From Nitrospirillum viridazoti CBAmc (GTDB lineage: Bacteria; Pseudomonadota; Alphaproteobacteria; Azospirillales; Azospirillaceae), in contig NZ_CP022110.1 in NCBI RefSeq assembly GCF_000730165.1, forward strand, positions 2,363,501 to 2,427,500: a DNA stretch of 64,000 nt, read 5' to 3'. The position numbers and the translations under genes were made by a program. Under the pieces are notes generated by a model, which was not told the origin of the DNA, searched no databases, and saw nothing but the letters and a program-made list of their open reading frames with translations. Below, one piece after another: positions 5,714 to 33,087 of the stretch. The number at the start of each line of letters is the position of its first letter. Positions within the stretch are counted from its first letter, which is position 1.

Positions 5714-5930
5714 TCATCGGGCCGCCTCCTGGTAGGATGGTTGACCTGATAGCCGGGAGAGGGTCGCCGCAGGTCGCTCGAAGTTATGTCTTCGTGCATG
5801 AGATTGGCGCCCTCGCCCGGTGCTTTTTGCCCGGACGGTATCCGGCGGTGTCGTGGCGAGGGGGCGGATGACCGCCCCGATCGGGGCGGTCATCCGCGCA
5901 TGGACAAGCGGGGGCACGAGCACCGGCTCC
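5714..5930 (+). ncRNA. Candidate IS110 bridge RNA (boundaries approximate)
   Basis: This noncoding left end should encode the bridge RNA known from IS110 elements. Four short matches support this. GTCT (5788-5791) equals the end of the left target half. CATGAG (5797-5802) is the reverse complement of core plus right target half (CTCATG). GACGGTATC (5834-5842) is identical to the right element end (7153-7161). ACAAG (5904-5908) is the reverse complement of core plus left element end (CTTGT). Their order (left target guide, right target guide, left donor guide, right donor guide) and polarity are what a two-loop bridge RNA needs. A perfect 34-nt palindrome (5864-5897) would be the hairpin between the donor guides. 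The 5' end is inferred from a junction promoter; the 3' end is a guess. Confidence 0.6.
5864..5897. repeat. 34-bp perfect palindrome inside the IS110 left end
   Basis: Two 17-bp arms (GCGGATGACCGCCCCGA and its exact reverse complement) with no spacer. As RNA it would fold into about 15 G+C-rich pairs capped by a GAUC loop. It has no following T-run, so it is not an ordinary terminator. Its place between the proposed donor guides makes it a likely structural arm of the bridge RNA. Confidence 0.9.
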
Positions 5931-5962
5931 GAGGCTTCCGGCCCATCCGTACGGGAGGCGCC

Positions 5963-7132
5963 ATGCAGTTCGTCGGCATCGACATCGCGTCGGAAACCCA
6001 CGTCTTCGCCGTCATCGACGCGGACGGCACAGTCCTGGTCAAACCCAAGCCGATCGCCGAAGACGCCACCGGGCACAGCACCTTGCTGGCGGCTCTGGCG
6101 CCGCCGGGTGAGGCGCTGGTGGTCATGGAGGCGACCGGGCATTACTGGAAGAACCTGTTCGCCGTGCTGGCCGCCAAGGGCTACGGGGTCGCTCTGATCA
6201 ACCCGCTGCGCACCCACCGCTTCCAAGGCGAGAGCCTGGAGCGCACCAAGACCGACGCCATCGACGCCATCGGCCTTGCCCGCTTCGGCCGTGAGAAGCG
6301 GCCGGCCGCCACCCGGCTCGGCAGCCAGGCCAGCGAGGACCTGCGCGAACTGGTCCGCCACCGCGACCGGCTGCGCCAGGACTTCGACGACCGTGTCCGC
6401 CAACTCCACCGGCTGGTCGATCTCGGCTTCCCGGAATTCCGCCGCTACGTCCGCACCCTCGACAGCATGTTGGCCACCGCAATCCTGGCCGAATATCCAA
6501 CCGCCGAGGCCGTCGCCAAGGCCACACCCCGTCGCCTCGCAAAGCTGCGCTACGATGGCCGCCACGCCGTCGGTGCCGAACTGGCCGACCAACTCATCGC
6601 CGCCGCCAAACGCTCGGTCGGCCAGCACCACGGCACCGCCTACCGCGTCCAGGTCCGCGACGTCTGCCAGGACCTCGACCTGTGGCGCCGCCGCCTCGCC
6701 GAGCGCGACGGCGACATTGCCCGGCTGCTCGATGACCATGAGGTCGGCTCGCTGCTCACCTCCATCGACGGCATCGGACCCGGAACCGCCGCTCGCCTCA
6801 TCGCCGAACTCGGCGACCCCGCACGCTTCGACAGCGCCGCCGCCCTCGCCGCCTATGTCGGGGTGGTCCCGGCCCTGCGACACTCCGGAAAGCGCCGGCC
6901 AAACAGGGCCGCTATCACTGCCATCGGAAACGCCCGCCTGCGCACCGCCTTGTGGATGCCAACACTCACCGCAGTCCGACGAAACCCGTGGCTCAAAGCC
7001 TTCTATGACCGCCTGCGCGCCCAGGGAAAGCCCCCCAAGCTTGCCCTTCTCGCCGCCATGCGAAAGCTTCTCGTCGCCGTCTACGCCGTCGCTAAGGCCC
7101 GAAAGCCCTTCGTGCCAAAGCTCGCTGGCTGA
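5963..7132 (+). CDS. IS110-family transposase/recombinase (DEDD + Ser)
   Basis: A 389-residue recombinase that, guided by the element's bridge RNA, moves a circular intermediate into a new site. The N-terminal RuvC-like DEDD domain shows VGIDIASETHVFAVID (first Asp), VVMEATGHYW (Glu) and RTKTDAIDAIGLARFG (Asp pair). The middle is an arginine-rich coiled coil (about residues 115-240). The C-terminal Transposase_20 domain has SIDGIGPGTAARLIAELGD (helix-hairpin-helix) and YVGVVPALRHSGKRR...AITAIGNARLRTALW with the expected nucleophilic serine region. ATG 5963 is preferred over the longer frame from 5786 because GGGAGG lies 4 nt upstream, the family starts at (V)GIDIA, and the upstream stretch is the bridge-RNA region. 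No frameshift is seen, so it is probably active. Confidence 0.95.
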   Translation: MQFVGIDIASETHVFAVIDADGTVLVKPKPIAEDATGHSTLLAALAPPGEALVVMEATGHYWKNLFAVLAAKGYGVALINPLRTHRFQGESLERTKTDAIDAIGLARFGREKRPAATRLGSQASEDLRELVRHRDRLRQDFDDRVRQLHRLVDLGFPEFRRYVRTLDSMLATAILAEYPTAEAVAKATPRRLAKLRYDGRHAVGAELADQLIAAAKRSVGQHHGTAYRVQVRDVCQDLDLWRRRLAERDGDIARLLDDHEVGSLLTSIDGIGPGTAARLIAELGDPARFDSAAALAAYVGVVPALRHSGKRRPNRAAITAIGNARLRTALWMPTLTAVRRNPWLKAFYDRLRAQGKPPKLALLAAMRKLLVAVYAVAKARKPFVPKLAG

Positions 7133-13298: not shown

Positions 13299-16034
13299 AT
13301 GGCCCTGAACACCGCCGCCCCGTCGACCATGGCGAACGACGATGCACCGCCGCCGCCATCGCCCAGCCCGCGCACCGTCCCGGCGCGCAGGCACCACGTA
13401 TGGGCGGTGATCGCGGTGCTGGTAGCGCCCCTGTTGGCGAAGCTGCATCTCATCCTGGGGTTCCGCCTCGCCGACCCGCGCCTGCTGCATTCGGGCCTGG
13501 GCGTCGATGTCGTGATGCCCAGAGGGTTGGCCACGCTGGACCCTAATGTCGCCATCACCAGCCAGGCGCTGGGACACCGGGCTGCCTTGGATCTGTTGGC
13601 TGGTCATATTCCCTGGTGGAACCCTTATGAGGGCGTGGGCGGCCCCATGGCCGGGGAGATGCAGTCCGCGGCCCTGTTCCCGCTGAACCTGCTGCTGGCC
13701 CTGCCCGACGGGCAGCTCTACATGCACCTGTCACTGCAGCTGGTGGCGGGCCTGTTCACGGTGTTGCTGATGCGGCGCCTGGGCACCTCGGCCCTGGCTG
13801 CGGGCGTGGCTGGGCTGCTGTTCGAATTCAACGGCACGTTCGCATGGTTGGCGAACGCCGTCGTCAACCCCATCCCCTTCCTGCCCATGGTGGTATTGGG
13901 CGTGGAGGAGGTCCGGCACCGGGTGGTGGCCGGCCTGCGCGGAGGATGGGCCTGGATCGTGGCCGGGCTTGCGCTGTCGCTCTATGCCGGTTTCCCCGAG
14001 GTCGCCTATCTCGACGGCCTGCTGGTCGGGGCCTGGACCCTGGCGAGGCTGCCGCTTCACACCAAGGCCGTATTGACCGCCTACGCGGCCAGGGTCGGGT
14101 TGGGTGTCGTCGGTGGCCTGGCGCTGGCCGCCCCCATCCTCATCGCCTTCCTGGGCTATTTGCCGTACGCGTTCGTCGGCGGACACGAGGGTAACGGCTT
14201 TCGCGACGCCCATGTCGATGCGCAGCATTTCGTCAACCTGACCATTCCGTACCTGTTCGGCCGGCTGGCTGACTTGCCCGGGGGGGAGGGTGGCTGGTTC
14301 TGGGGCAGCGTCGGCGGCTACATGCCCATCGGTCTCACCGCCCTGGCCATCGCCGGCTGCTTCGGACGCCCGTTGCGCGGCTTGCGCTGGACCTTGGCTG
14401 CCTGGACCGTGGCGGCCTTGGCCGCGATTTATGGCCTTCCGGTCATCGGCCGGCTCATCACCAGCATCCCGGCCGTCGGCAACGCCGCCTTTTTCCGCTA
14501 TCTGCCACCGTCGGCGGAATTCTCTGTCGCGATCCTGGCGGGGCTGGCGTGCCAGGACATGATCCAGTCCGGCGCGCAGGCTATGGGGCGTCGCCCGGCC
14601 CGGGCCCTGCTGGCCGGCGTCCTGCTGGCAAGCGCGACGGCGGCCGCGGGTCTCCTCATCGCCGCCCACTATTATGTCGAGATGCCCCACCCCTCGCACT
14701 GGTTCCGGAACGCGCTGTGCGTGGCGGTTCTGACCGTCCTTCTCCTTTTCTTGCTCAGCGTCGCACGCCTGCCTGGCCGGCGGCGCGCCGTGGCGGTCGG
14801 TGCCGTCGTCGCGGTCGAGGCCGTCCTCATGTTCGTGGTCCCCACGACGTCCAATCCGCCAAAAGGCATCCTGATCGAGGACGGCGTGCGCTTCCTGCAA
14901 GCGCACCTGGGTCTGCAGCGCTTCTTCTCCATGGGCCCCGTCGCCCCCAATTACGGCGCCTATTATGGTATCGCCGGCATCAATCATGACGACCTGCCGC
15001 TGCCCCGGTCCTGGGTCGATTACGTGGCGGCACACCTGGACGCCAACGTCCACCACATTGCATTCGACGGCAAACAACGGAACTCGGCCGATGGACCCTC
15101 CGTCGAGGAGAACTTGCGCGCCAACCTCGCGGAGTATGAGAAAGTCGGCGTGCGCTATGTGGTGACTGCGGCGGCCGGCAATCCCTTCAGATGGACCCCT
15201 CGGGAGTTTCGAGTGGACCGCCCGGGCGGCCTGCCCATCCCGCTCTCCGATGGCGGAACGGCGGTCATCGGATGGAATCGACCGGACCTGCCACAGCCCA
15301 TCGACGGCGTTGGTGTCCTGATCGGCACCTATGGCGGCAAATCCGACGGTGTGCTGCGGGCATCCATCTGCGCCGATGACATGTGCGCCGACCAAGTCCT
15401 TGACCTGACCCAGGCGACCGACAACCAGTTCCTGCCCATCAAGCTGGATCATCCTCTCCCCCCGCCCAAGAACCGCCTGACGGTCACCCTGCGCAAGACG
15501 GGCGCCTACCCCGTGGCGCTCTGGTCGTTCCCGTCCTCATCCGACAGCCGCATGACCTTGACCGTGGATGGCTACACCGGTCCGCCCCATGAGGTGCGAA
15601 TCAACGTCGATCTGGCGACCGACGATCGCGGCCCGTCGCGAGTCTATACCGACCGGGCCATGACCATTTTCGAATTGCCCGATCCGGCGCCCTATTTCTC
15701 CGCCGAGGGCTGCCAATTGCAGGCGGAAGCGCGGGACAGGCTGGTCGCCGACTGCGCGGCGGCCAGTATCCTGAAACGCCAGGAATTGTTCCTGCCCGGT
15801 TGGACCGTCGACGTGGGCGGCATGCCGCGGCAGGAGGTTCAGCCGGATGGACCCCTCTTTCAGCGGATCTCCCTGCCAGCGGGGCGCTCGGAAGTCCGCT
15901 TCAATTACAGCCCGCCCTATATGCCGGCGGGATACGCCTTGTTCCTGCTGGGGATAGGGGTATTGCTGTGGTCGCTGCATCCCGCTGGACGCCCCTCCTT
16001 TCCGCTGGAGACCGGCAACAGCGGTCCTCGCTGA
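13299..16034 (+). CDS. YfhO/GT-C-like polytopic membrane protein, array copy 1
   Basis: A 911-residue integral membrane protein. A short Pro-rich cytoplasmic N-terminus precedes the first helix (VWAVIAVLVAPLLAKLHLIL). It then has ATLDPN (about residue 80), a periplasmic loop GHIPWWNPYEGVGGPMAGE (about 102-120), and about ten more helices up to about residue 500. A soluble region contains PVAPNYGAYYGIAGINHDDLPLP, and a C-terminal beta domain has LFLPGWTVDVGG...LFQRISLPAGRSEVRFNYSPPYM before the last helix. This is the layout of the YfhO family, GT-C-like proteins that in Gram-positives transfer sugars from undecaprenyl-phosphate to surface polymers. The substrate here is unknown. ATG 13299 is chosen over TTG 13230 (no SD at either). 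It is the first of four tandem paralogs. Confidence 0.8.
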   Translation: MALNTAAPSTMANDDAPPPPSPSPRTVPARRHHVWAVIAVLVAPLLAKLHLILGFRLADPRLLHSGLGVDVVMPRGLATLDPNVAITSQALGHRAALDLLAGHIPWWNPYEGVGGPMAGEMQSAALFPLNLLLALPDGQLYMHLSLQLVAGLFTVLLMRRLGTSALAAGVAGLLFEFNGTFAWLANAVVNPIPFLPMVVLGVEEVRHRVVAGLRGGWAWIVAGLALSLYAGFPEVAYLDGLLVGAWTLARLPLHTKAVLTAYAARVGLGVVGGLALAAPILIAFLGYLPYAFVGGHEGNGFRDAHVDAQHFVNLTIPYLFGRLADLPGGEGGWFWGSVGGYMPIGLTALAIAGCFGRPLRGLRWTLAAWTVAALAAIYGLPVIGRLITSIPAVGNAAFFRYLPPSAEFSVAILAGLACQDMIQSGAQAMGRRPARALLAGVLLASATAAAGLLIAAHYYVEMPHPSHWFRNALCVAVLTVLLLFLLSVARLPGRRRAVAVGAVVAVEAVLMFVVPTTSNPPKGILIEDGVRFLQAHLGLQRFFSMGPVAPNYGAYYGIAGINHDDLPLPRSWVDYVAAHLDANVHHIAFDGKQRNSADGPSVEENLRANLAEYEKVGVRYVVTAAAGNPFRWTPREFRVDRPGGLPIPLSDGGTAVIGWNRPDLPQPIDGVGVLIGTYGGKSDGVLRASICADDMCADQVLDLTQATDNQFLPIKLDHPLPPPKNRLTVTLRKTGAYPVALWSFPSSSDSRMTLTVDGYTGPPHEVRINVDLATDDRGPSRVYTDRAMTIFELPDPAPYFSAEGCQLQAEARDRLVADCAAASILKRQELFLPGWTVDVGGMPRQEVQPDGPLFQRISLPAGRSEVRFNYSPPYMPAGYALFLLGIGVLLWSLHPAGRPSFPLETGNSGPR

Positions 16035-16120
16035 CGGTCGCGGTGTTTCCCTGGGGCGCCGTTTTGGAGGGCGAGAATGGCGGGCGTCATCGGAACAGGC
16101 CGGTTGCAAAAGTGTCCGCC

Positions 16121-18793
16121 ATGGCCGATGAGGAAGGATCAATCCGCCTCTCCACCACCGAGATGGACGCCTTGCCCAGCAGCTTGATGCAACGCCTGCC
16201 GCCACAGCCCACCGGCGCGGAAATCCAGGCGCCTCTGTGGCGCTCCAGCGGCTTCCGGGCCATCGCCCTGCTCATCCTCGCCCCCATTTTGGCCAAGCTT
16301 GGCCTGATCCTGGGCTGGCGCCTGGCGGACCCGCGTTTCGTCGAAGGCTGGCTGGCCAGCGGCGTCACGCGCGACGGGCTGTCCACGCTGGACCCCAACA
16401 TCGCCTACACCAGCCATGCCCTGGGGCATCGCGCGGCGCTGGACTGGCTGTCCGGCCACATTCCCTGGTGGAACCCCTATTCCGGCATCGGCATGCCGCT
16501 GGCCGGCGACATGCAATCCGCCGCCCTTTTTCCACCCACCTTGTTGCTGGCCCTGCCCAATGGCCAATTGTACCTGCACATCAGCCTGCAGATTGCATCG
16601 GGCGTCTTCACCTGGCTGCTCATGCGGCGCCTGGGGGTCGCGGCGCTGGGCGCCATCGTGGCCAGCCTGCTGTTCGAATTCAACGGCACCTTCGCCTGGC
16701 TGGCCAATGCCGTCGTCAACCCCATCCCCTTCCTTCCCATGGTGTTGCTTGGGGTGGAAGAGGCGCGGGCCCGCGCGCTGGCCGGCCAGTTGGGTGGGTG
16801 GGGGTGGATCGCCGGCGGTCTGGCTCTGTCGCTTTACGCCGGCTTTCCCGAAGTCGCCTACTTCAACGGTCTGCTGATCGCCCTCTGGACCCTGGCACGG
16901 CTCGCAGGCCTGGGGGATCGCTCTATGGCGTATATGGCGCGTGTCGCCACCGGAACGGTGGCTGGACTGCTGCTGGCCGCCCCCATCCTCATCGCCTTCG
17001 TGGAGTATCTGGGCCACAGCTATCTGGGCAACCATGCCGCCGGCGGCTTCCGTCATTCGCATCTCGACATCCAGCGCCTGCTGACCCTGTTCCTACCCTA
17101 TGCCCTGGGCGAGCTGGGCCATACGCCGGACGCGCAGGCCTTCATATTCTGGGGCGCCGTCGGCGGTTATACCGGCCTGGTCCTGGTGGTGGTGGCCGCG
17201 ATGGCGGTCTGGCATCCCTGGCTGCGCGGGTTGCGGCTGACGCTGGCCGGTTGGTGCGTGGTGGTGACCGGCGCGGTCTATGGCCAGCATGCGATGGTGG
17301 CCTTGCTCACCGCCATCCCGGCGGTCGGCGACGCGATGTTCTTCCGGTACTTCAACCCGTCGATCTCGTTCGCACTGGCCGTGCTGGCCGGCCTGGCCTG
17401 CCATGACCTGGCGGATCAGCCCGCGGAAAGACGGTCCGGGCTTGCCTACTGGGGCGGCTTGGCCGCGGGCGTGGCGTGCTTGGTGGCGCCGCTTTGGCTG
17501 TCCCATCGGCTGTACATGAACGCCCCCTTCGTGCCCATCCTGGCCCGGTCCCTGATTTACGCCGTGGTGGCACTGCTGGCCGTCCGCGAACTGGGGGGCG
17601 GCGCCTTCAGCAACCGCACGCGGGCTTTGATACTGGGCGTCGCGGCTGTTGCCGAAGCGGTGGTGCTGTTCGTGCTGCCCCTGCGCAATTATCCCAAAAG
17701 CGGCCGGCTACAGACGGCCGGCGTGGAATTCCTGCAGAAAAACCTGGGCCTGCAGCGCTTCTACACCCTGGGGCCCATCCAGCCCAACTACAGCGCCTAT
17801 TACGGTATCGCGGGCATCAACCACAACGCCCTGCCGCTGCCCGCGGCCTGGGTGGACCACGTTTTCACCCATCTGGACAACAACACCATCGAATCGGCCT
17901 TCGATGGCCATGACCGCAAGGTGGCGGGGGGGCCCACCGCCCTGGAGAACCTGCGTGCCAATCTGGACGCCTATCGGGCCATGGGCGTGAAATACCTGGT
18001 GGCGCCCACCGGCCAAAGCCCCTTCGACTGGAAACCGCCGGGCGTGGCCGTCAGCATGACCGAGGTCTTGCGCTTGGACGACGGCGGCAGCGCCAGCCTG
18101 GTCTTGCCGCCTGACCCGTCCATGGCAGCCGAACGCGAGGTGCGGTCGGTCGGCGTCCTGGTGGCCACATATGTGGGGCAAAGCAAGGGCACGCTGGTCG
18201 TGCGCTTCTGCGCCGCCGACCGCTGCGCGGAAGGACGCCGGGACCTGGCCACGGCGGCCGACAACCAGTACCTGTCCATCCCCTTGGACACGCCGGTGCC
18301 TTGGGCGGGCCCCATGACCATCACCTTCCGCAAGGTCGGGGGCGACTTCCCCGTGGGGCTGTGGACCACGCCGGCACCGGCACGGGATCCGCAGGTGACC
18401 TTGCGATTCGCCTCCCCCGTGGCCGGCGATGAGGTCATGGACATCGTCGAGCTGCCCGGCGCCCGCCCCTATTTCACGGCCGAGGGATGCCGGCTGACGG
18501 CCGCCAGCCGTGAGATGGTGACCGCCGACTGCCCCGCCCCGGCCACACTGACGCGCCTGGAACTGTTCATGCCAGGCTGGACGGCAACCGTGAACGGGGC
18601 ACAGCGGACAGTCGGCCAGGACGGCCCGCTGTTCCAGAGGGTCGACCTGCCCGCCGGCCGGTCGGACGTGCGTTTCCACTATCAGCCACCCCATATGGCC
18701 TGGGGCTATGCCGCCTTCCTTGTCGGGCTTGGTTTGGCGGCAGCCAGCGCCCTGCCCTTCGCCCGTAACCGACGTTCCGTCGCGATACCCTGA
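16121..18793 (+). CDS. YfhO/GT-C-like polytopic membrane protein, array copy 2
   Basis: 890 residues, paralog of copy 1, with the same landmarks: STLDPNIAYTSHALGHRAALDWL, GHIPWWNPYSGIGMPLAGDMQSAALFP, LLFEFNGTFAWLANAVVNPIPFLPM, PIQPNYSAYYGIAGINHNALPLP and the C-terminal LFMPGWTATVNGAQRT...VDLPAGRSDVRFHYQPPHM with a final helix. The start is uncertain. ATG 16121 gives a cytoplasmic tail comparable to copy 1, but the nearest good SD (GGAGGGCGAGA) serves an out-of-frame ATG at 16077 that reads only about 35 codons. The open frame itself begins at 15800 inside copy 1. It lies 86 nt after copy 1 and 8 nt before copy 3, so copies 1-3 are likely one transcript. Confidence 0.8.
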   Translation: MADEEGSIRLSTTEMDALPSSLMQRLPPQPTGAEIQAPLWRSSGFRAIALLILAPILAKLGLILGWRLADPRFVEGWLASGVTRDGLSTLDPNIAYTSHALGHRAALDWLSGHIPWWNPYSGIGMPLAGDMQSAALFPPTLLLALPNGQLYLHISLQIASGVFTWLLMRRLGVAALGAIVASLLFEFNGTFAWLANAVVNPIPFLPMVLLGVEEARARALAGQLGGWGWIAGGLALSLYAGFPEVAYFNGLLIALWTLARLAGLGDRSMAYMARVATGTVAGLLLAAPILIAFVEYLGHSYLGNHAAGGFRHSHLDIQRLLTLFLPYALGELGHTPDAQAFIFWGAVGGYTGLVLVVVAAMAVWHPWLRGLRLTLAGWCVVVTGAVYGQHAMVALLTAIPAVGDAMFFRYFNPSISFALAVLAGLACHDLADQPAERRSGLAYWGGLAAGVACLVAPLWLSHRLYMNAPFVPILARSLIYAVVALLAVRELGGGAFSNRTRALILGVAAVAEAVVLFVLPLRNYPKSGRLQTAGVEFLQKNLGLQRFYTLGPIQPNYSAYYGIAGINHNALPLPAAWVDHVFTHLDNNTIESAFDGHDRKVAGGPTALENLRANLDAYRAMGVKYLVAPTGQSPFDWKPPGVAVSMTEVLRLDDGGSASLVLPPDPSMAAEREVRSVGVLVATYVGQSKGTLVVRFCAADRCAEGRRDLATAADNQYLSIPLDTPVPWAGPMTITFRKVGGDFPVGLWTTPAPARDPQVTLRFASPVAGDEVMDIVELPGARPYFTAEGCRLTAASREMVTADCPAPATLTRLELFMPGWTATVNGAQRTVGQDGPLFQRVDLPAGRSDVRFHYQPPHMAWGYAAFLVGLGLAAASALPFARNRRSVAIP

Positions 18794-18801
18794 CGACAAC
18801 G

Positions 18802-21471
18802 ATGACATCAGATACCGCCAACAGCCGCAGGCCGCTGTTCCTTGTCCTCATCGCCCCCATCCTGGCCAAGCTGCACCTGATTCTGGGCTGGCGGCTGGCC
18901 GATGCCCGCTTCCTGGAAAGCGGCATCGCCGCCCGGGTGCTGCGGCGCAGCTTGTCCACGCTTGACCCCAACATCGCCTATACCAGCCAAGCCCTGGGCC
19001 ACCGCGCGGCGCTGGACTGGCTGTCGGGCACCATTCCCTGGTGGAATCCCTATTCCGGCATCGGCATGCCGTTGGCCGGCGACATGCAGTCCGCCGCCCT
19101 GTTTCCGCCAACGTTGCTGCTGGCCCTGCCCAATGGGCAGCTCTACATGCACATAAGCCTGCAGGTCCTGGCCGGCCTGTTCACCTGGTTGCTGCTGCGG
19201 CGGCTGGGCCTGGCGCCGATGGCATGCGCCGTGGCGGCCTTGCTGTTCGAGTTCAACGGGACCTACGCCTGGCTGGCCAACGCCGTCATCAACCCGATCT
19301 GCTTTCTGCCCATGACCCTTCTGGGCGTGGAAACCGTGCGGAGCCGCGTCCAGGCGGGCGCGCGAGGCGGCTGGCCTTGGATCATTCTGGGGCTGGCCTT
19401 GTCCCTCTATGCCGGTTTTCCCGAGGTCGCCTATTTCAACGGCCTGCTGATCACCGTCTGGACGCTGGCGCGGCTGGCGGGCCTTGCCGGGCGGCAGCGT
19501 GCGGTTTACCTCGCCCGAGTGGCGCTGGGCGCCGTCGGCGGCCTGCTGGTCGCGGGTCCCATCCTGGTCGCTTTCCTGGGCTATTTACCGGACGCCGACC
19601 TGGGCGCTCACAGCGACGGCGGCTTCCGGCATGTGCATTTGTCCGCCGCCCGCCTGATCACGCTGGTACTGCCCTACGGCCTGGGCCGGCTAAGCGACCC
19701 CGGTACGGCGGAAAGCTTCGGCTTCTGGGGGGCGGTGGGTGGTTATACCGGTGTCGGCCTGCTTGGCTTGGGCATGATCGGCGCGGTTGGAGGCCATCTG
19801 CGTTCCCTGCGCCTGGCCCTGGCCGGCTGGGTCGCCATCGTCACAGGCGCCATTTATGGCCTGCCCGTGGTCAACGCTGTCGTGACCGCCATCCCAGGCG
19901 TCGGCTGGGCCGTGTTCTTTCGCTACTTCGCCCCCTCTGTGTCCTTCGCGCTGGCCATCCTCGCGGGATTGGCCTGCCAGGATCTGGCGGAGGCGTCGAA
20001 GCCAACACGCCGGCAATGGCTTGGTTTCGCGGCGGTGATGGCCTTCACGGCCCTTGCCCTGGGCTTGGCCGTTCCCCTGTTGGCGCTGAAGCCCTACCGT
20101 ACGCCCTGGCTGTGGGGCTCGCTGGCGGTGACTGCGATGGTCCTGGCCGGCATGGCCGCCATCCTGCGCCGGCCCACTCTGGAAAGCCACCGCCGCGCCC
20201 GCTGGCTGGGTGGCCTTGCGGTGGCCGAGGCGGTGCTGCTGTTGCTGATACCCACCCTGTTCTACCCGAGCGCCGGTGTCCTTCGGGAAGAAGGCATCGG
20301 CTTCCTGCGAAGCCATCTGGGCCTGCAGCGCTTTTACACCGTGGGTCCCATCCAACCCAACTACAGCGCCTACTACGGCATTGCCGGCCTCAACCATAAC
20401 AACCTGCCCCTGCCGGCCGCCTGGGTGGATCATGTTGTTCAGCAGCTGGACGATAACACGTATCCCATCGCCTTCGACGGCCGGGACCGCCTCTCCGCCA
20501 CGGGGCCCAGCGCGATCGACAATCTGCGGCGCGACCCGGACGCCTATCGCGACATGGGCGTCCGCTACGTCGTTTCCATACCAGGCAAAGGTCCCTTCGA
20601 CTGGGCTCCCCCCGGGATGGTCGACCAGGTCCAACGTCCGCTCGCCCTGGCCGACGGGGATACGGCGATCCTCACCCTGCCGGCGGGCGCCGGCAGGATG
20701 CCCTTCGATGCCAGGCGCGGCCATGTGGCCGCCGTGGGCCTGCATGTCAGTTCCCTGAAAAACGGCGCCGCCGACGGCCGCCTGACACTGCGCCTATGCG
20801 TCGGCACGATGTGCGCCGACGGCGGGTACGCATTATCGGACGTCGTCGGTGGCAGCTACATTCTGGTTCCGCTGTCCGAAGCCGTTCCGCTGGCGGGCGA
20901 CGCGCCCCTGACGCTGGCGGTCAGCCGGGTGGGCGGACGCAAGCGTTTCGGCCTGGCCATGTGGACGGCGGGAACGGATACGGGGCGAACCCTCACCCTG
21001 AACGGTGGACCGATCACAGGCGTGGAGCCCCATGTCGCCTTCGCCCTGGTCGCGGCCGAACCAGCCGATGCCGGACCAACCGTTGAAGGCGCCGGCCCCG
21101 TCTTCCGCGACGACGTGATGCAGATCGACGCGCTGCCCGCCCCCCGGCCGTACTTCGGCGCCGATGGCTGCCATTTGGCGCCCGTCAGCCGGGAACGGCT
21201 GGCGGCCGATTGCGCCGCCCCGGCCACGCTGACCCGGCTGGAGCTGTTTATGCCGGGCTGGAAGGCCACCGTGAACGGCCGGGAACAGACCGTGGCGGCC
21301 GACGGCCCGCTGTTCCAGAAGGTCGACCTGCCCGCCGGCCGGTCGGAGGTCGTCTTTCGCTATACCCCGCCGTACATGGGTTGGGGCTACGGCGCCCTCG
21401 CCGCCGGCTTGGCCATGTTCGTGCTGGGCATGGGCCAAGGCCGGCGACGAAACCTCAACGATCCTCGCTGA
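18802..21471 (+). CDS. YfhO/GT-C-like polytopic membrane protein, array copy 3
   Basis: 889 residues. The first helix starts almost immediately (RRPLFLVLIAPILAKLHLILGW), so the cytoplasmic tail is shorter than in copies 1 and 2. Shared motifs are STLDPNIAYTSQALGHRAALDWL, IPWWNPYSGIGMPLAGDMQSAALFP, PIQPNYSAYYGIAGLNHNNLPLP and LFMPGWKATVNGREQT...VDLPAGRSEVVFRYTPPYM. It is closest to copy 2 (identical blocks such as GIGMPLAGDMQSAALFPPTLL), suggesting copies 2 and 3 are the latest duplication. The start lies 8 nt after the copy 2 stop. Its 3' end overlaps the stop of the convergent lipoprotein gene by 17 bp. Likely a glycosyltransferase acting outside the inner membrane; the acceptor is unknown. 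Confidence 0.8.
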   Translation: MTSDTANSRRPLFLVLIAPILAKLHLILGWRLADARFLESGIAARVLRRSLSTLDPNIAYTSQALGHRAALDWLSGTIPWWNPYSGIGMPLAGDMQSAALFPPTLLLALPNGQLYMHISLQVLAGLFTWLLLRRLGLAPMACAVAALLFEFNGTYAWLANAVINPICFLPMTLLGVETVRSRVQAGARGGWPWIILGLALSLYAGFPEVAYFNGLLITVWTLARLAGLAGRQRAVYLARVALGAVGGLLVAGPILVAFLGYLPDADLGAHSDGGFRHVHLSAARLITLVLPYGLGRLSDPGTAESFGFWGAVGGYTGVGLLGLGMIGAVGGHLRSLRLALAGWVAIVTGAIYGLPVVNAVVTAIPGVGWAVFFRYFAPSVSFALAILAGLACQDLAEASKPTRRQWLGFAAVMAFTALALGLAVPLLALKPYRTPWLWGSLAVTAMVLAGMAAILRRPTLESHRRARWLGGLAVAEAVLLLLIPTLFYPSAGVLREEGIGFLRSHLGLQRFYTVGPIQPNYSAYYGIAGLNHNNLPLPAAWVDHVVQQLDDNTYPIAFDGRDRLSATGPSAIDNLRRDPDAYRDMGVRYVVSIPGKGPFDWAPPGMVDQVQRPLALADGDTAILTLPAGAGRMPFDARRGHVAAVGLHVSSLKNGAADGRLTLRLCVGTMCADGGYALSDVVGGSYILVPLSEAVPLAGDAPLTLAVSRVGGRKRFGLAMWTAGTDTGRTLTLNGGPITGVEPHVAFALVAAEPADAGPTVEGAGPVFRDDVMQIDALPAPRPYFGADGCHLAPVSRERLAADCAAPATLTRLELFMPGWKATVNGREQTVAADGPLFQKVDLPAGRSEVVFRYTPPYMGWGYGALAAGLAMFVLGMGQGRRRNLNDPR

Positions 21472-21781
21472 CCGAGATCAGGGCCGTGTCCTTGACGACG
21501 CAGCGCATGACATGGCGGCCGGCGGCGGCGGTGATGTCGCGGCGGGGCATCAGGGTGAAGGGCTGGACCACAGTCTGGCGACCATCCGCCTCGGTGGCCA
21601 GGACCGGCAGGTCGAAGACGATCTTGTAATAGTCGTCGTACACATGGTCGACCTCGCGCCGGCAGACGGTCGTGGCCGTGCGCGGCATGTCGTAGTGGTG
21701 GCCGCTGTCGTCGGCGTTGATGACGCAGCCGCTCAAGGACAGGCAGCCGATGGCGGCGCCCAAAATCACTTGGTTACGCAT
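21455..21781 (-). CDS. Small lipoprotein of unknown function
   Basis: 108 residues with a lipoprotein signal peptide: MRNQVILGAAIGCLSLSGC, lipobox LSGC with lipidation at Cys19, followed by V-I-N-A-D, so probable outer-membrane sorting (no Asp at +2). The mature part has two more cysteines (VCRREVDHVYDDYYKIVFDLPV and HVMRCVVKD) and reads as a small beta domain. It is antisense to, and inserted between, copies 3 and 4 of the YfhO-like array, overlapping copy 3 at the stop codons. No recognised family. Confidence 0.7.
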   Translation of the reverse strand: MRNQVILGAAIGCLSLSGCVINADDSGHHYDMPRTATTVCRREVDHVYDDYYKIVFDLPVLATEADGRQTVVQPFTLMPRRDITAAAGRHVMRCVVKDTALISVSEDR

Positions 21782-22036
21782 GGCCCTATTCTCCCCTTAT
21801 ATGGCGATGGCGCGCGAGGGCGCGCCCGCCCTCTCTACAAGGACGGTGGGGAAGGACAAGGCGGCGAAACCAGGAGGTTACCCGAATTTACCGGGCGGTA
21901 ACGCGGGGCCATCCCACCGTAACGCAAGAGATTCAAACGCAAGGGATTCAATCCAGGGCGGTAAAGCCTTGCGGGACTTGAAATCCACGGACCATTGAGG
22001 GATCCAGTCCCCAGACCTCCAGCCGCAGGACCGCCA

Positions 22037-24724
22037 ATGCCCCAGATGCCCGCAGCCGCAGGCACACCCCCTGACCGGAACAGCCGCAACGGTTTCCGCA
22101 CGGCGTTCATCCTGGCGGTGCTGATGCCTGTACTGGCCAAGCTGCACCAAATCCTGCATCTGCGCCTGGCCAACCCGGCCCTGATGAACAGCGACCTGGT
22201 CACCGGACTGAACGCAGACGGGGTGTCGTCCCTGGACCCCAACGTCGGCTTCACCAGCCAGACGCTGGGGCATCGCGCGGCCCTGGACCTGCTGTCCGGC
22301 CACCTGCCCTGGTGGAACCCGTATGAAGGCGTGGGCATGCCGCTGGCGGGGGAGATGCAGTCGGCGGCGCTGTTCCCCCTGACGCCGCTGCTGGCCCTGC
22401 CGGACGGCCAGCTTTACATGCACATCACGATGCAGATCATCGCCGGCGTCTTCACCGTGCTGCTGATGCGCCGCTTGGGCACGGGCGCCCTGGCCGCCGG
22501 CACCGCCGCCCTGCTGTTCGAATTCAACGGAACCTACGCCTGGCTGGCCAATGCTGTCATCAACCCCATCTGCTTCCTGCCCATGATCCTGCTGGGGGTT
22601 GAGGATGTCCGTCTGACTGTGGTCGCCGGCCGCGAGGGGGAACGCCGGGGGGGATGGGGCTGGATCGGGCTGGGGGTGGCGCTGTCCCTGTACGCCGGCT
22701 TTCCGGAAATGGCCTATCTGGACGGGCTGCTGGCCGCCGCCTGGACCGTAGCCCGCCTGCCCGGCCTGGAACGCCGCCAAGCCGCGTCGTACCTGGCGCG
22801 CCTGGCGCTGGGCGTCGGGGCTGGCGTCCTGCTGGCCGCCCCCATCCTGATCGCCTTCCTGGGATATCTGCCGCACGCCTTCGTGGGCGCCCATGGCGGC
22901 GAAGGCTATCGTTATGTCCGCCTGGGTCAGGAACGCCTCATCACCCTGCTGATGCCCTACCTTCACGGGCGGCTGACGGACGCCACCACCCCGGACGCCG
23001 GGGTCTTCTGGGGGCGGGCCGGGGGTTATATCGGCGTGATGATGCCGGCCATGGCGGTGATGGGCCTGTGGGCGCGGCGGTGGCGCGGCCTGCGCCTGGC
23101 CTTGGGCGCCTGGTCGCTCTTCACCATCGCCACCCTCTACGGCGTGCCCGGCCTGACCCATCTGGTCACCGCCGTGCCCATGGTCACCAACAGCATCTTC
23201 ACGCGCTATCTGCCGCCCTCTTTCGAATTCGCCCTGGCCATCCTGGCCGGTCTGGCCTGTCACGACCTGGCCCAGGCTGGCGACATGAGGCGATTGTGGG
23301 CCCGCCCGCTTTTCCGGAATGGGGCCGCCGCCCTGGCGCTGCTGTTGCTGGCCGCCGCCGTCCTGTCATGGGGCCGCTTCAACGATACCGCTGTCCTGTC
23401 CTGGTACCGGCTATCGATTGGCTGCACCGCGGCCTTGGCGCTTGGTGTCTGCGTCCTGGCATTCCCGCGTCTGGATGGCCGGCGCCAGGCCCTGGGCCTG
23501 GCGGCCTTCACCGTCGTGGAGGCCATCGCCCTGTTCCTGGTACCGGCGGTGTGGACGGTCAAGGCCGGCACGCTGCAGCTGGGGGGCATCCACTTCCTGC
23601 GGCAGAATTTGGGATTGCAGCGCTTTTACACCCTGGGCCCCATACAGCCCAACTACGGGTCCTTTTACGGGGTCGCCAGCCTGAACCACGACGACCTGCC
23701 CCTGCCTGCCGACTGGACGCGCTACGTCCACGACCATCTGGACGACAACACCACCGGCGTGACCTTCGGCCCCTACGGGCACCTGGACCCCAGCCGGGGC
23801 AGCCAAGCGCAAAACCTGATGCGCAACCTGGACGCCTTCCGCGAGGTGGGCGTCAAATACGTGGTCGCCCCGCCCGGGATTTCGCCCTTCGGATGGGATG
23901 CCGGCCAGGACCAGAACGACCCTGGCCACCAGCCCCTGCGCCTGGACGACGGCACGCGGGTGACGCTGGCGGTGCCGGATTACCCGGCGGGGAATGAAGT
24001 GCATGACGTCAGCGTCATGCTGGGGACCTACGGCGACAAGAGCGACGGGGTTTTGCTGGTGATGGCGTGCCGGGGCGAAGTCTGCGCCACCGGGCGCACC
24101 GATTTGGCCGCCGCCCGTGATGGCCGCTATGCCCGCATCTCCTTGGACCACCCCCTGCCGCCCGGCAGCGCGCCGGTCACCCTGGAATGGCGCAAGTCCG
24201 GCGGCACGGTGCCGGTGGTCATCTGGGCCATCCAAGGCCATGCCGACCGGCCCCGCGCCCTGGCCCTGGACGGCGCGCCCAAGCCGGGATGGGAAGCCGT
24301 GATCGGCATGGGAGCCCCCGTTCCGGCCTTCGTGGATGCGCCTGTCTATTCCGATGCCGTCATGGACATTTATGAGATGCGCCAGCCCCCGGCGCCCTAT
24401 TTCCAGGCTGACGGGTGCGTGGTCGATGCCACCGTGCGCGTACAGGCGACCGTGGACTGCCCCGCGCCGGCAACGCTGACGCGGCGGGAACTCTACCTGC
24501 CGGGATGGACAGCCACCCTCAACGGCCAGGACAGCCCCGTCATGCGACAGGGAGAACTGTTCCAGCGGGTCGCCCTGCCCGCGGGCCGATCGGTGGTGAA
24601 GTTCCACTTCCACCCGCCCTTCATGCCGCTGGGATACGCTGCCTTCGCCGCCGGCTTGTTGCTGACGGCCCTGGGATGGCGGACATGGAGGGGGCGGGAG
24701 AAGGCGTCCCGCCCTGGCAGCTAG
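22037..24724 (+). CDS. YfhO/GT-C-like polytopic membrane protein, array copy 4
   Basis: 895 residues and the most diverged of the four. Landmarks retained are SSLDPNVGFTSQTLGHRAALDLL, GHLPWWNPYEGVGMPLAGEMQSAALFP, LLFEFNGTYAWLANAVINPICFLPM, PIQPNYGSFYGVASLNHDDLPLP and LYLPGWTATLNGQDSP...VALPAGRSVVKFHFHPPFM. ATG 22037 with GCAGGA 6 nt upstream is preferred over TTG 21995. It is separated from copy 3 by 565 bp and an opposing lipoprotein gene, so it has its own promoter. Its TAG stop shares the palindrome CTAG (24721-24724) with the stop of the convergent gene. Same inferred role as copies 1-3. Confidence 0.8.
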   Translation: MPQMPAAAGTPPDRNSRNGFRTAFILAVLMPVLAKLHQILHLRLANPALMNSDLVTGLNADGVSSLDPNVGFTSQTLGHRAALDLLSGHLPWWNPYEGVGMPLAGEMQSAALFPLTPLLALPDGQLYMHITMQIIAGVFTVLLMRRLGTGALAAGTAALLFEFNGTYAWLANAVINPICFLPMILLGVEDVRLTVVAGREGERRGGWGWIGLGVALSLYAGFPEMAYLDGLLAAAWTVARLPGLERRQAASYLARLALGVGAGVLLAAPILIAFLGYLPHAFVGAHGGEGYRYVRLGQERLITLLMPYLHGRLTDATTPDAGVFWGRAGGYIGVMMPAMAVMGLWARRWRGLRLALGAWSLFTIATLYGVPGLTHLVTAVPMVTNSIFTRYLPPSFEFALAILAGLACHDLAQAGDMRRLWARPLFRNGAAALALLLLAAAVLSWGRFNDTAVLSWYRLSIGCTAALALGVCVLAFPRLDGRRQALGLAAFTVVEAIALFLVPAVWTVKAGTLQLGGIHFLRQNLGLQRFYTLGPIQPNYGSFYGVASLNHDDLPLPADWTRYVHDHLDDNTTGVTFGPYGHLDPSRGSQAQNLMRNLDAFREVGVKYVVAPPGISPFGWDAGQDQNDPGHQPLRLDDGTRVTLAVPDYPAGNEVHDVSVMLGTYGDKSDGVLLVMACRGEVCATGRTDLAAARDGRYARISLDHPLPPGSAPVTLEWRKSGGTVPVVIWAIQGHADRPRALALDGAPKPGWEAVIGMGAPVPAFVDAPVYSDAVMDIYEMRQPPAPYFQADGCVVDATVRVQATVDCPAPATLTRRELYLPGWTATLNGQDSPVMRQGELFQRVALPAGRSVVKFHFHPPFMPLGYAAFAAGLLLTALGWRTWRGREKASRPGS

Positions 24725-25770
24725 CAGGCGAAATCGCTGATCTTGCCATCACCCTCCAGATGGACCACGCACAGCCAGGTACCGCTGGCGTATCGCGCCT
24801 CATAGACATCATGGCTGACGCGGGCGTCGGGCGCGTCCTTCTTGTTCAGCGCGCGCTCGATGCTGCCGATATAGCGCAGCCCCTGCAAGGCGCCCCGCCC
24901 CGCCGCGCGGTTCGGGCGGGCCAGCAGCTTACTCAGGCGGGGCAGCAGGTTGGGGGTGTAGAGGCCGGGGGTCAGCTGGCCGCTGTCCCAGTCGGCCAGG
25001 GCCTGGCGCAGAGCCGCCAGGCTGGGCGGGGCCGCGTCCGCCGGCGGTTCGAAGTGCACGCCGCGCGCCGGCACCTGCGCCGTCACCGGCAGGAAGCCCG
25101 CCAGCCGGCCGTTGGCCTGACCGGTGAAGGATAGTTGCTGCCCCGCTGCTCCCTCGACCTCGGCATCGACATGGAAGGCGATGCCGCCCGCCAGGCTCCA
25201 TGACAGGCTGAGGTGGCGTTCTTCCAGCTCCCCCTCCCCCACCGAGTCCAGCAGGGGGCAATAGGCCCGCAGGCGGTCGCGCGTCTGCTCGAACCGGCAG
25301 ATGTGGGTGTCGTTCTCATAGCGCTTGTAGAAGGCTGAATCGCCCAGCCCGAAGGTGGAGCGGGCGGTGATCTTCCAATAGCCGCTGACGTCCAAGGGCG
25401 TCACCACCACCTCCTGGATGCCGGTGTCCGGGGGCGGCGCGAAGGGCCCAGCCGCCGTGGCCGGCGCAGATTGGGCGGAGTGGGACTGTGTGGAGTGGGA
25501 CTGGGTGGACCGGGATTGGGCGGCGGCCGGCCGCTTGCCCGTCGTCGCGGCGGATGGGGCGCCAGGGACCGGCGTGGCGTCCGGCGCGATTTGGGGATCG
25601 GCCCCGTCGGCACCGGCCTGGCGGGGGCCCTCCACCGGCGGCAGCACCACCCCATCGGCGGGGCCGCCCAGATGATGCAGGGCGGTGCCGTGTTCCTGGG
25701 CATTGTTGCTGGCGCAGGCCGCCAGGCCCAGCATCAGCGCCACCGCCAGACCGCTCCGCCGCTTCCGCAT
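24721..25770 (-). CDS. Lipoprotein with Ser/Gln/Thr repeat linker
   Basis: 349 residues. Signal peptide MRKRRSGLAVALMLGLAAC, lipidation at Cys19 (lipobox LAAC). A low-complexity linker (about residues 40-115) contains a 15-bp DNA repeat encoding S-T/A-Q-S-H type units (about 25471-25521). It is followed by a globular domain beginning VSGYWKITARSTFGLGDSAFYKRYENDTHICRFEQ and ending GTWLCVVHLEGDGKISDFAC, with cysteines that could pair. ATG 25770 starts 2 nt after the yciB stop (TAAGGATG), so the genes are translationally coupled; the longer frame to 25929 overlaps yciB and is rejected. Function unknown. Confidence 0.75.
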   Translation of the reverse strand: MRKRRSGLAVALMLGLAACASNNAQEHGTALHHLGGPADGVVLPPVEGPRQAGADGADPQIAPDATPVPGAPSAATTGKRPAAAQSRSTQSHSTQSHSAQSAPATAAGPFAPPPDTGIQEVVVTPLDVSGYWKITARSTFGLGDSAFYKRYENDTHICRFEQTRDRLRAYCPLLDSVGEGELEERHLSLSWSLAGGIAFHVDAEVEGAAGQQLSFTGQANGRLAGFLPVTAQVPARGVHFEPPADAAPPSLAALRQALADWDSGQLTPGLYTPNLLPRLSKLLARPNRAAGRGALQGLRYIGSIERALNKKDAPDARVSHDVYEARYASGTWLCVVHLEGDGKISDFAC

Positions 25771-25772
25771 CC

Positions 25773-26345
25773 TTACGCTCCGCCGCCCTTGTCGCCCGCC
25801 TCGCCCCCGGCTTCCGGCACCTGATGCTTCAGGATGAGGGGCACCTGCGCCATGCTGAACAGCACGAACAGCGGGATGACGACGAAGGATTTGTAGGCCA
25901 CCCACTGGTCGGTGGTCAGGAAGCGCCACGCCACCTCGTTGGCGCCGGCCAGCACCAGGAAGAAGGCCATCCAGCGCACGGTCAGGCGGCGCCAGCCGTC
26001 CTGGTCCAGATCCACACCCACCAGCACCTGGGCCAGCAGGTTGCGGCGCAGGGCCACGCCCACGGCCAGGGCCAGAGCGAACAGCAGGTAGATGATGGTG
26101 GCCTTCACCTTGATGAACGTCTCATCGTTCAGCCACAGGGTCAGGCCGCCGAACACCAGCACGAAGCCGCAGGTGACGAGCGGCATCAGCGGCCACTTGC
26201 CATCCAGCTTGCGATAGATGGGCAGGGCCACCACCGCCGCCACCATGAAGGCGGCGGTGGCGACCATGATCCCACCGTTGGCGTTGGCCACAAAGAAGAC
26301 GACCAACGGGCCCCATTCCAGGAGCAGACGGATCAGCTGCGACAT
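25773..26345 (-). CDS. yciB: Inner-membrane septation protein YciB/IspZ family
   Basis: 190 residues, five predicted helices, with the family features LIRLLLEWGPLVVFFVANANGGIMVATAAFM at the start, YRKLDGKWPLMPLVTCGFVLVFGGLTLWLNDETFIKVKATIIYLLFA in the middle and the C-terminal WVAYKSFVVIPLFVLFSMAQVPLI. YciB/IspZ proteins sit in the inner membrane and are linked to cell division, envelope integrity and intracellular septation. ATG 26345 shares a base with the stop of amn (TAATG), so it is translationally coupled to it. Confidence 0.92.
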   Translation of the reverse strand: MSQLIRLLLEWGPLVVFFVANANGGIMVATAAFMVAAVVALPIYRKLDGKWPLMPLVTCGFVLVFGGLTLWLNDETFIKVKATIIYLLFALALAVGVALRRNLLAQVLVGVDLDQDGWRRLTVRWMAFFLVLAGANEVAWRFLTTDQWVAYKSFVVIPLFVLFSMAQVPLILKHQVPEAGGEAGDKGGGA

Positions 26346-32607: not shown

Positions 32608-33087
32608 TCAGGCCCCGGGCGCCTTGTGGCCGAACACCAGCATCTTGGACAGGACGAAGTTGAAGCCCATGCCGGCCAGGGAGCCGGCGCCCTTGGCGCC
32701 ATAAGGCCACAGCGCGGGCAGCCACGGCAGCAGGGTCACCGCGAAGGCGGGCGCGTCCAGCCAGACGATGAGGTTGTAGGTCGCGAGGTTGACTACGCCG
32801 CCAACGGCGTTGGCCGCCAGGAACTTGGCCCACTGGCGTATTGCCCCCCGCCGGCTGGCGCCAGTGAAGGTGAACTGCCGGTTCATCCACCAGGTGAAGG
32901 TGGCGGCCACGAAGTACGAGAAGAAGCCAGCGCTGTGCTTGTCCAGGCCTAAGGGGTTCAGGGCCACCCACAGCGCCCCCATGTCCACGAACAGGCCGGC
33001 CACGCCGATAAGGGCGAAGGACATGACCTCCGCCTTCACGTGTTTCGGCTTGCCCTCTGGCAGATCGCCCTTTGGCAGATCGGTCAC
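32608..33087 (-). CDS. GtrA-family membrane protein (putative lipid-linked sugar flippase)
   Basis: 159 residues with four transmembrane helices and GtrA motifs: FALIGVAGLFVDMGALWVAL, FFSYFVAATFTWWMNRQFTF (the Asn-Arg-x-(F/W)-TF signature) and FLAANAVGGVVNLATYNLIVW. GtrA proteins are thought to flip undecaprenyl-phosphate-linked sugars made by a GT2 (GtrB) enzyme. The GT2 gene lies 5 nt upstream and a GT-C-like protein before it, giving the classic three-component order. The start is GTG 33087, with a modest SD in the end of the GT2 gene. Confidence 0.88.
   Translation of the reverse strand: MTDLPKGDLPEGKPKHVKAEVMSFALIGVAGLFVDMGALWVALNPLGLDKHSAGFFSYFVAATFTWWMNRQFTFTGASRRGAIRQWAKFLAANAVGGVVNLATYNLIVWLDAPAFAVTLLPWLPALWPYGAKGAGSLAGMGFNFVLSKMLVFGHKAPGA

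Follow-up and report, generated by a model that had tools for sequence, protein, structure and literature searches.

The window analysed here is a 64,000-nucleotide stretch of the genome of Nitrospirillum viridazoti CBAmc, a plant-associated, nitrogen-fixing bacterium (genus Nitrospirillum; 7.4 Mb in four contigs), and it carries an array of four YfhO-related genes, Y1 to Y4, whose products we consider very likely to be glycosyltransferases of the GT-C fold that act in three-component periplasmic glycosylation. The span 13299-24724 runs exactly from the start codon of Y1 to the stop codon of Y4. As the initial annotation had observed, four paralogs of roughly 900 residues occupy about 11 kb, and all four are intact open reading frames (ORFs) of 889-911 amino acids (aa) on the same strand. 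The features of the array are as follows:

13299-16034, plus strand: Y1, YfhO-like predicted GT-C protein, 911 aa, intact ORF
16121-18793, plus strand: Y2, YfhO-like predicted GT-C protein, 890 aa, intact ORF
18802-21471, plus strand: Y3, YfhO-like predicted GT-C protein, 889 aa, intact ORF, the paralog modelled
18964-18966, plus strand: codon for Asp55 of Y3 (LDPN motif), a residue that follows helix 1 of the model
20590-21066, plus strand: predicted beta-sandwich insert resembling a lectin or carbohydrate-binding module (CBM), Y3 residues ~597-755, most divergent between paralogs
21094-21375, plus strand: conserved C-terminal beta domain (PGW...LPAGRS), Y3 residues ~765-858, which holds the stretch matching Pfam YfhO
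21455-21781, minus strand: small lipoprotein-like ORF between Y3 and Y4, 108 aa, lipobox-like LSGC near the N-terminus
22037-24724, plus strand: Y4, YfhO-like predicted GT-C protein, 895 aa, intact ORF

Pairwise protein identity among Y1-Y4 is 46.9-56.6% and DNA repeats are in register across the four genes, which places the array far beyond chance and confirms the observation of four paralogs; family matches in the source genome are confined to these genes. The description of a tandem array holds for Y1-Y3, which stand head to tail with gaps of 86 bp (Y1-Y2) and 8 bp (Y2-Y3), but the array is not unbroken, as Y4 follows after 565 bp and lies past the opposite-strand 108-aa ORF. This ORF overlaps the 3' end of Y3, has no match in Pfam or NCBIfam, and by its position suggests that Y1-Y3 are likely one three-gene unit and that Y4 is probably its own transcription unit. 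LDPN, PWWNPY, PNYxx(Y/F)YG, PGW and LPAGRS were found in all four proteins as annotated, whereas the histidine of the proposed GHxPWWNPY motif is present in three of the four and is threonine in Y3.

Y1-Y4 occupy a chromosomal slot, defined as the region from sdhB to a 402-aa ORF, that was compared in seven genomes of the genus and found in every one of them, with sdhA and sdhB upstream and the 402-aa ORF and an AMP nucleosidase-like gene downstream. The number of copies in the slot is 1, 1, 1, 2, 3, 4 and 4: a single copy in N. iridis, Azospirillum sp. B4 and G005, Y2-Y3 in BR 11622, Y2-Y3-Y4 in BR 12005, and the full Y1-Y4 set in BR 11880 and the window genome. The counterpart of Y4 is intact in BR 12005 and has an early in-frame TAG in BR 11880. 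One additional paralog lies away from the slot in each of B4 (G001), BR 12005 (G002), G005 and N. iridis (G006), and the 108-aa lipoprotein-like ORF is found in the slot of all seven genomes, with 68-96% identity to the six others. The copy-number survey proposed with the initial annotation thus shows that strains of the genus differ, with one to four slot copies, a pattern that fits the suggested variable surface glycosylation at the level of gene content. The 402-aa ORF (24721-25929, minus strand), downstream of the array in 7/7 genomes, has no match in Pfam or NCBIfam, and an IS110-family transposase gene (5786-7132, plus strand) lies upstream of the sdh genes.

Relationship to YfhO, predicted fold and the divergent insert

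The assignment to YfhO stands as kinship and fails as family membership. The gathering cut-off of PF09586 (YfhO) is 28.5 bits, and none of the four proteins reaches it: Y1 has no match, and Y2, Y3 and Y4 score 16.4, 23.5 and 25.4 bits, over the C-terminal ~45 aa only. Homology is instead found through intermediates, as 18 of 21 alignment members match PF09586 at E ≤0.01, six of the ten distant members scored singly (of 11) are above the cut-off, and the Caballeronia member (L031) reaches 55.7 bits with the transmembrane (TM) core included. Kinship to YfhO, though distant, therefore appears firm through the family, and we regard the array proteins as a long-form branch, Gram-negative and YfhO-related, rather than as Pfam members. 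The statement that YfhO-like proteins usually occur singly needs qualification, since three matches each were obtained in 3 of the 299 genomes sampled from the phylum, with up to three candidates scored per genome.

An AlphaFold model of Y3 generated from a 21-sequence alignment has a predicted local distance difference test score (pLDDT) of 85.3 and a predicted template modelling score (pTM) of 0.86; an earlier model built on the four window proteins alone (pLDDT 44.8) was set aside. Foldseek returned five matches at E <0.001, three to AftD and two to ArnT entries (best E 2.8e-10 and 2.4e-4, respectively), and the top VIA-align match was mycobacterial AftD (6W98), with a Z of 20.4 over 544 residues at 5.6 Å. 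Single chains of yeast STT3 (Z 19.1), Pmt4 (17.6), PglB (16.8) and ArnT (12.8) were also matched, and by group the Z ranges are 15-19 for STT3/PglB, 14-18 for PMT, 11-13 for Emb and 12-13 for ArnT. The predicted Y3 model thus has the membrane fold of a GT-C glycosyltransferase, bearing out the annotated GT-C assignment, and the absence of any GT-C or YfhO similarity, which had been named as the outcome that would count against the annotation, did not occur. No GT-C protein was found when solved structures were searched by sequence, and a profile search of them up to E 1 gave no match to the mycobacterial arabinofuranosyltransferase AftD. Against a viral fold library the matches were low throughout and concerned tail and capsid proteins of phages (best E 1.1e-4; among the matches listed, TM-score to query ≤0.15).

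In the family alignment, position 55 is Asp in 34/34 members covering it, position 94 is Asp or Glu in 35/35 rows, and E208, R510, N520, C790, C804, R812, E814 and W820 are invariant in 35/35; of these 35 rows, 20 come from this genus. ArnT, PMT and STT3-PglB carry an acidic residue in the first periplasmic loop. As Asp55 follows the first helix of the Y3 model, and so lies in the predicted first extracytoplasmic loop, we propose it as a candidate catalytic acid by analogy with ArnT and PglB.

Residues ~597-755 of Y3 form an insert whose fold matches are beta-sandwiches with Z up to 12 in VIA-align, including a lectin-like domain and an arabinofuranosidase/xylosidase domain as well as viral capsid and PHR domains; family members of ~750 aa are without it. 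Mean paralog identity is 32.1% in the insert versus 56.5% in the C-terminal beta domain, and is 53.0% in the TM-domain helices, 56.8% in the TM-domain loops and 54.7% in residues 491-596. The annotated diversification is therefore present in the middle region but not at the C-terminus, which is conserved like the rest, and variation did not concentrate in neutral helices, a second outcome named as contrary, since divergence peaks in the periplasmic beta-sandwich. In control comparisons, Y1 shares 59% identity with its N. iridis counterpart in the insert and 62-81% in other parts, and 42% and 55-63%, respectively, with that of G005. As the insert is also least conserved between species, part of its divergence reflects weak constraint.

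Distribution and the possible supply of donor

With the alignment, a survey of the taxonomic family matched 11 of 82 genomes, comprising all seven of this genus, two full-length matches in one other genus and two short ones. Corresponding surveys matched 15 of 385 genomes of the class, at full length only in the window genome and G412, and 27 of 398 of the phylum, mostly over a short C-terminal stretch; these two surveys scored two candidates per genome and bound presence rather than copy number. PF09586 was above its cut-off in 3/190 sampled genomes of the class and 22/299 of the phylum. The named relatives belong to Burkholderiaceae, Rhodanobacter, Acetobacteraceae, actinobacterial metagenome-assembled genomes (MAGs) and one unplaced MAG, and sugar-nucleotide genes lie near the YfhO-like relatives of Gluconacetobacter diazotrophicus (L040) and L131, taken to be an Azospirillum plasmid. 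A recent mobile origin of the array was considered, and the conservation of the slot in seven genomes argues to the contrary, an argument qualified by the plasmid just mentioned (352 kb, Azospirillum sp. TSA2s), which carries one relative. A literature search for YfhO with Alphaproteobacteria gave no match, and among the matches listed (titles and abstract openings) for YfhO in Gram-negatives or as paralogs, and for Nitrospirillum exopolysaccharide or lipopolysaccharide, no such array appeared. Two further loci were noted. A MAG contig (L041:1-4800) holds two YfhO-like copies, of which one is truncated where the contig ends, as a small set outside Nitrospirillum, and the ORF between them weakly resembles the amine oxidase of the DprE cluster described below. 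In another genus of the family, a short C-terminal YfhO-like remnant (L135:9335-9754) lies near ORFs that by eye resemble toxin-antitoxin and transposase genes.

Downstream of the array the window holds candidates for the remaining two components, in a cluster with one other gene and beside a fourth:

32608-33087, minus strand: GtrA family protein, putative polyprenyl-phosphate-sugar flippase, 159 aa (PF04138 77.1 bits, cut-off 26.1)
33093-34064, minus strand: glycosyltransferase family 2 (GT2) enzyme, similar to dolichyl/polyprenyl-phosphate hexose synthases, 323 aa
34090-35775, minus strand: 561-aa membrane protein in the same cluster as GT2 and GtrA, no match in Pfam or NCBIfam
35862-37214, minus strand: pentapeptide-repeat protein, 450 aa, adjoining the GT2/GtrA cluster

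The GT2 enzyme matches PF00535 (E 2.3e-15) and a dolichol-phosphate-mannose synthase structure (E 1.4e-5), and scores 199 bits against NCBIfam AglJ, below the cut-off of 325. A predicted GT2 polyprenyl-phosphate-sugar synthase and a GtrA family protein are thus both present, and together with the 561-aa protein they form a cluster found in 7/7 genomes of the genus. Judged from its context and by eye from its sequence, the 561-aa protein is possibly a further GT-C transferase, perhaps of an undescribed GT-C family.

The annotated partnership of YfhO-like proteins with a GT2 enzyme is backed by gene neighbourhood in the relatives. A homologue of the window GT2 (62-64% identity) directly adjoins the YfhO-like gene in L031, L032, L033 and L036, loci of Caballeronia, Paraburkholderia, Burkholderia and Rhodanobacter, and another (71%) lies 5 kb from that of Gluconacetobacter diazotrophicus (L040), so that such a gene is near in 5 of the 12 first-set loci outside the genus. 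GtrA directly follows GT2 in L031, L032 and L036 (Caballeronia, Paraburkholderia, Burkholderia), and these three neighbourhoods support a proposed three-component system of GT2, GtrA and YfhO-like GT-C protein. At L132, a different GT2-family gene lies 2 kb from the YfhO-like gene.

A second route to a lipid-linked donor is suggested by contig 3 of the source genome (L175:6542-12904), where UbiA, DprE1-like, DprE2-like, amine-oxidase-like and GtrA genes precede an ORF on the opposite strand that encodes a membrane protein of 753 aa. DprE1 and DprE2 are our own labels; in Pfam the proteins belong to FAD-binding and short-chain dehydrogenase families, which tempers any reading of the cluster by name. 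At the counterpart place in BR 12005 an opposite-strand ORF (576-aa membrane protein) is followed by a YfhO-like paralog; the UbiA-DprE1-DprE2-like cluster with GtrA of the second strain spans L029:1570-7933. As different membrane proteins follow in the two strains, the place behind GtrA looks interchangeable between them, a transferase slot. UbiA, DprE1-like and DprE2-like genes also share one locus with the YfhO-like, GT2 and GtrA genes of Caballeronia L031. These clusters make polyprenyl-phosphate-pentofuranose a possible donor, and with AftD as the best structural match it could be argued that Y1-Y4 are AftD-like pentofuranosyltransferases using polyprenyl-phosphate-arabinofuranose or another pentofuranose rather than the GT2 product. 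We regard this as possible but doubtful. A GT2 gene is the neighbour that recurs most in the family, and it is there in L032, L033 and L036 too, three loci in which neither a UbiA nor a DprE homologue turned up in a search; the paralogs at the second locus of N. iridis, B4 and G005 belong to another clade and lack such genes nearby; G005 has a slot gene, yet its DprE1-like homologue is just 46% identical; and fold likeness does not tell the donor.

Several observations weigh against placing Y1-Y4 in a three-component system supplied by GT2 and GtrA. These two genes lie 8-11 kb from the array and on the other strand (GT2 8.4 kb from Y4). Seven of the 12 loci outside the genus are without such a GT2 in the flanking DNA examined (two of them contigs of 6-8 kb), as are L131-L134 in the DNA examined, L133 having one distant 28% match, and no GT2, GtrA, UbiA or DprE homologue was found in the ~20 kb around the paralogs that N. 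iridis, B4 and G005 carry at a second locus (L128-L130). Of 59 sampled genomes, 35 have a close GT2 homologue (at least 45% identity, near full length), and in 26 of those 35 no YfhO-like match was obtained. A GT2 specific to the array was accordingly rejected, and since homologues are common in genomes without a YfhO-like match, the window GT2 may mainly serve the 561-aa protein; the trio of GT2, GtrA and 561-aa protein was present in two of three inspected genomes of that kind (L071, L072), with GT2 only in L073. As to the fold, likeness in a predicted model is by itself no proof of activity, and the Z of 12-13 for ArnT and Emb is within the range that VIA-align calls common for helical proteins. 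No DXD or modified DXD motif, as defined in PMC5836110, is conserved in the family: Asp or Glu fills 33 or more of the 35 rows only in columns 55, 94, 177, 208, 476 and 814, and no two of these lie within two positions of each other. Divergence of the insert is by itself no proof of new specificities, and the dN/dS between orthologs (0.15-0.30, nine comparisons) is without sign of diversifying selection.

Age of the copies and the proposed glycosylation system

In a tree of 35 family members, each of Y1, Y2, Y3 and Y4 forms one clade together with the copies at the corresponding position in other strains. The clades of Y2 and Y3 are sisters (support 100/99) and Y1 clusters with the lone copies in the slots of N. 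iridis and G005 (97/98), while the positions of Y4 and the B4 slot copy are poorly resolved; a long-branch warning covers, among others, the B4 slot copy and the second-locus copy of BR 12005, whose placement is unsure. Between paralogs, dS is 0.93-1.12 and dN 0.39-0.53, and the longest identical DNA run between any two copies is 28 bp, and on these grounds recent duplication and recent gene conversion were rejected. Positive selection was likewise rejected given the ortholog dN/dS and a paralog dS near saturation (paralog dN/dS ≤0.85, in the insert). The sequences thus indicate an old family with copy gain and loss under purifying selection and no recent amplification. Residues 30-110 of Y2 and Y3 are 85% identical with a dS of 0.53, against 0.94 overall, so that an older gene conversion is possible there.

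Such a history could also accommodate redundant copies, with the same donor and acceptor, retained for dosage or for different conditions. The first loop region is alike in all paralogs (62-85% identity in residues 30-110), the ortholog groups are under purifying selection, and strains live with one or two fewer copies or, in one case, with a stop codon in Y4. We nevertheless find redundancy unlikely, as the paralogs are old, with a dS of about 1, their ortholog groups are distinct across strains, and divergence is concentrated in a periplasmic domain of glycan-binding appearance. It seems improbable that the proteins have a GT-C-like membrane fold but work as polymerases, ligases or flippases instead: no activity data were found for this branch and a conserved DXD-type pair is missing, yet the top fold matches are GT-C transferases, the conserved Asp lies in the expected loop, and GT2 and GtrA are neighbours in relatives. 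The idea that the array switches surface glycans as a recombining or phase-variable cassette, for which the varying copy number and the closeness of Y2 and Y3 in residues 30-110 might be cited, can be dismissed almost entirely, because exact matches between copies do not exceed 28 bp, the ortholog groups are cleanly apart in the tree, and the array region holds only imperfect 19-37 bp arrays with units of 5-18 bp (11 rows) and no clear repeats for phase variation.

The following route for the three-component system of Y1-Y4 is what we infer from the genes and their kinship, from predicted fold and conservation, and from gene neighbourhoods and differences in copy number. The GT2 enzyme (33093-34064), or the UbiA/DprE-like route on contig 3, would load a sugar on polyprenyl phosphate at the cytoplasmic side, and the GtrA protein would flip the polyprenyl-phosphate-sugar. 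Each array enzyme would then transfer the sugar to a periplasmic acceptor, whether O-antigen, exopolysaccharide or another glycan, using the conserved Asp of the first periplasmic loop and the periplasmic beta-sandwich. Donor chemistry would be common to the copies, which would differ chiefly in the insert as the likely reader of the acceptor, and the set held by a strain would determine part of its surface decoration. A different acceptor for each copy is plausible. More tentatively, the array could be a birth-and-death cluster of acceptor-specific GT-C enzymes in which a GT2/GtrA donor is shared, the inserts decide, and a second, interchangeable GT-C slot lies behind the polyprenyl-phosphate-pentofuranose cluster. 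Taken together, the interpretation of the initial annotation is partly supported.

Precedents for such sharing are described in the literature. In Gram-positives, CsbB, GtcA and YfhO add N-acetylglucosamine to lipoteichoic or wall teichoic acid, and Listeria GttA and Lactococcus lactis CflA have more than one GT-C partner each (PMC8035078, PMC5836110), so that a GT-A enzyme or flippase common to several GT-C proteins has precedent (PMC8035078). In Citrobacter, a CBM-bearing GT-C enzyme of a UbiA-type system adds pentofuranose to O-antigen after polymerisation (PMC11127046). By analogy with these systems, one donor supply with several decorators is a reasonable scheme for the array. In PMC8035078, YfhO-type three-component glycosylation is described for cell wall polymers of Gram-positives; in the present case a plant-associated Gram-negative genus has, near a single GT2/GtrA pair, a chromosomal slot for one to four predicted GT-C genes related to YfhO, unusual in its four-copy state, its copy number from strain to strain and its divergent inserted domain. 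Strains may each decorate their surface differently via the subset of copies retained. If confirmed, the system would connect a donor synthase with the family in alpha-, beta- and gammaproteobacteria and, with paralogs that combine a conserved core with a divergent periplasmic domain, offer a tractable route to acceptor choice by GT-C enzymes.

Like YfhO of B. subtilis, S. aureus and L. monocytogenes, the array proteins are of predicted GT-C type, and in both a large extracytoplasmic part precedes the last helix. YfhO goes with a GT2 and a GtrA-type protein by genetics (CsbB, GtcA), and the array proteins may do so as well, judging by gene neighbourhood. In contrast to YfhO, which is encoded in a csbB-yfhO operon, they are Gram-negative, score below the Pfam cut-off, have the extra beta-sandwich insert and occur in up to four copies beside sdhB. 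AftD (6W98), with a GT-C core and an extracytoplasmic CBM domain as outlined in PMC11127046 and PMC8035078, is the closest solved fold, although identity in structural alignments is 10-15% and the AftD entry has 1312 residues. Citrobacter youngae ORF12 (GT136), as described in PMC11127046, resembles the array proteins as a GT-C enzyme with a CBM-like domain and a lipid-linked donor that would act after polymerisation; both genomes have a UbiA-type gene, with a MATE flippase there and GtrA here. ArnT, PMT and STT3-PglB have the GT-C fold in common with the Y3 model but are distinct families, with 8-14% identity in structural alignments. The O-antigen glucosylation systems GtrA/GtrB/Gtr(type) of Salmonella and Shigella are often carried by phages. 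They share the module of GT2, GtrA and GT-C protein, which there decides the surface type, but are arranged as one small cassette, whereas the copies in Nitrospirillum fill a multi-copy chromosomal slot with GT2 and GtrA standing apart.

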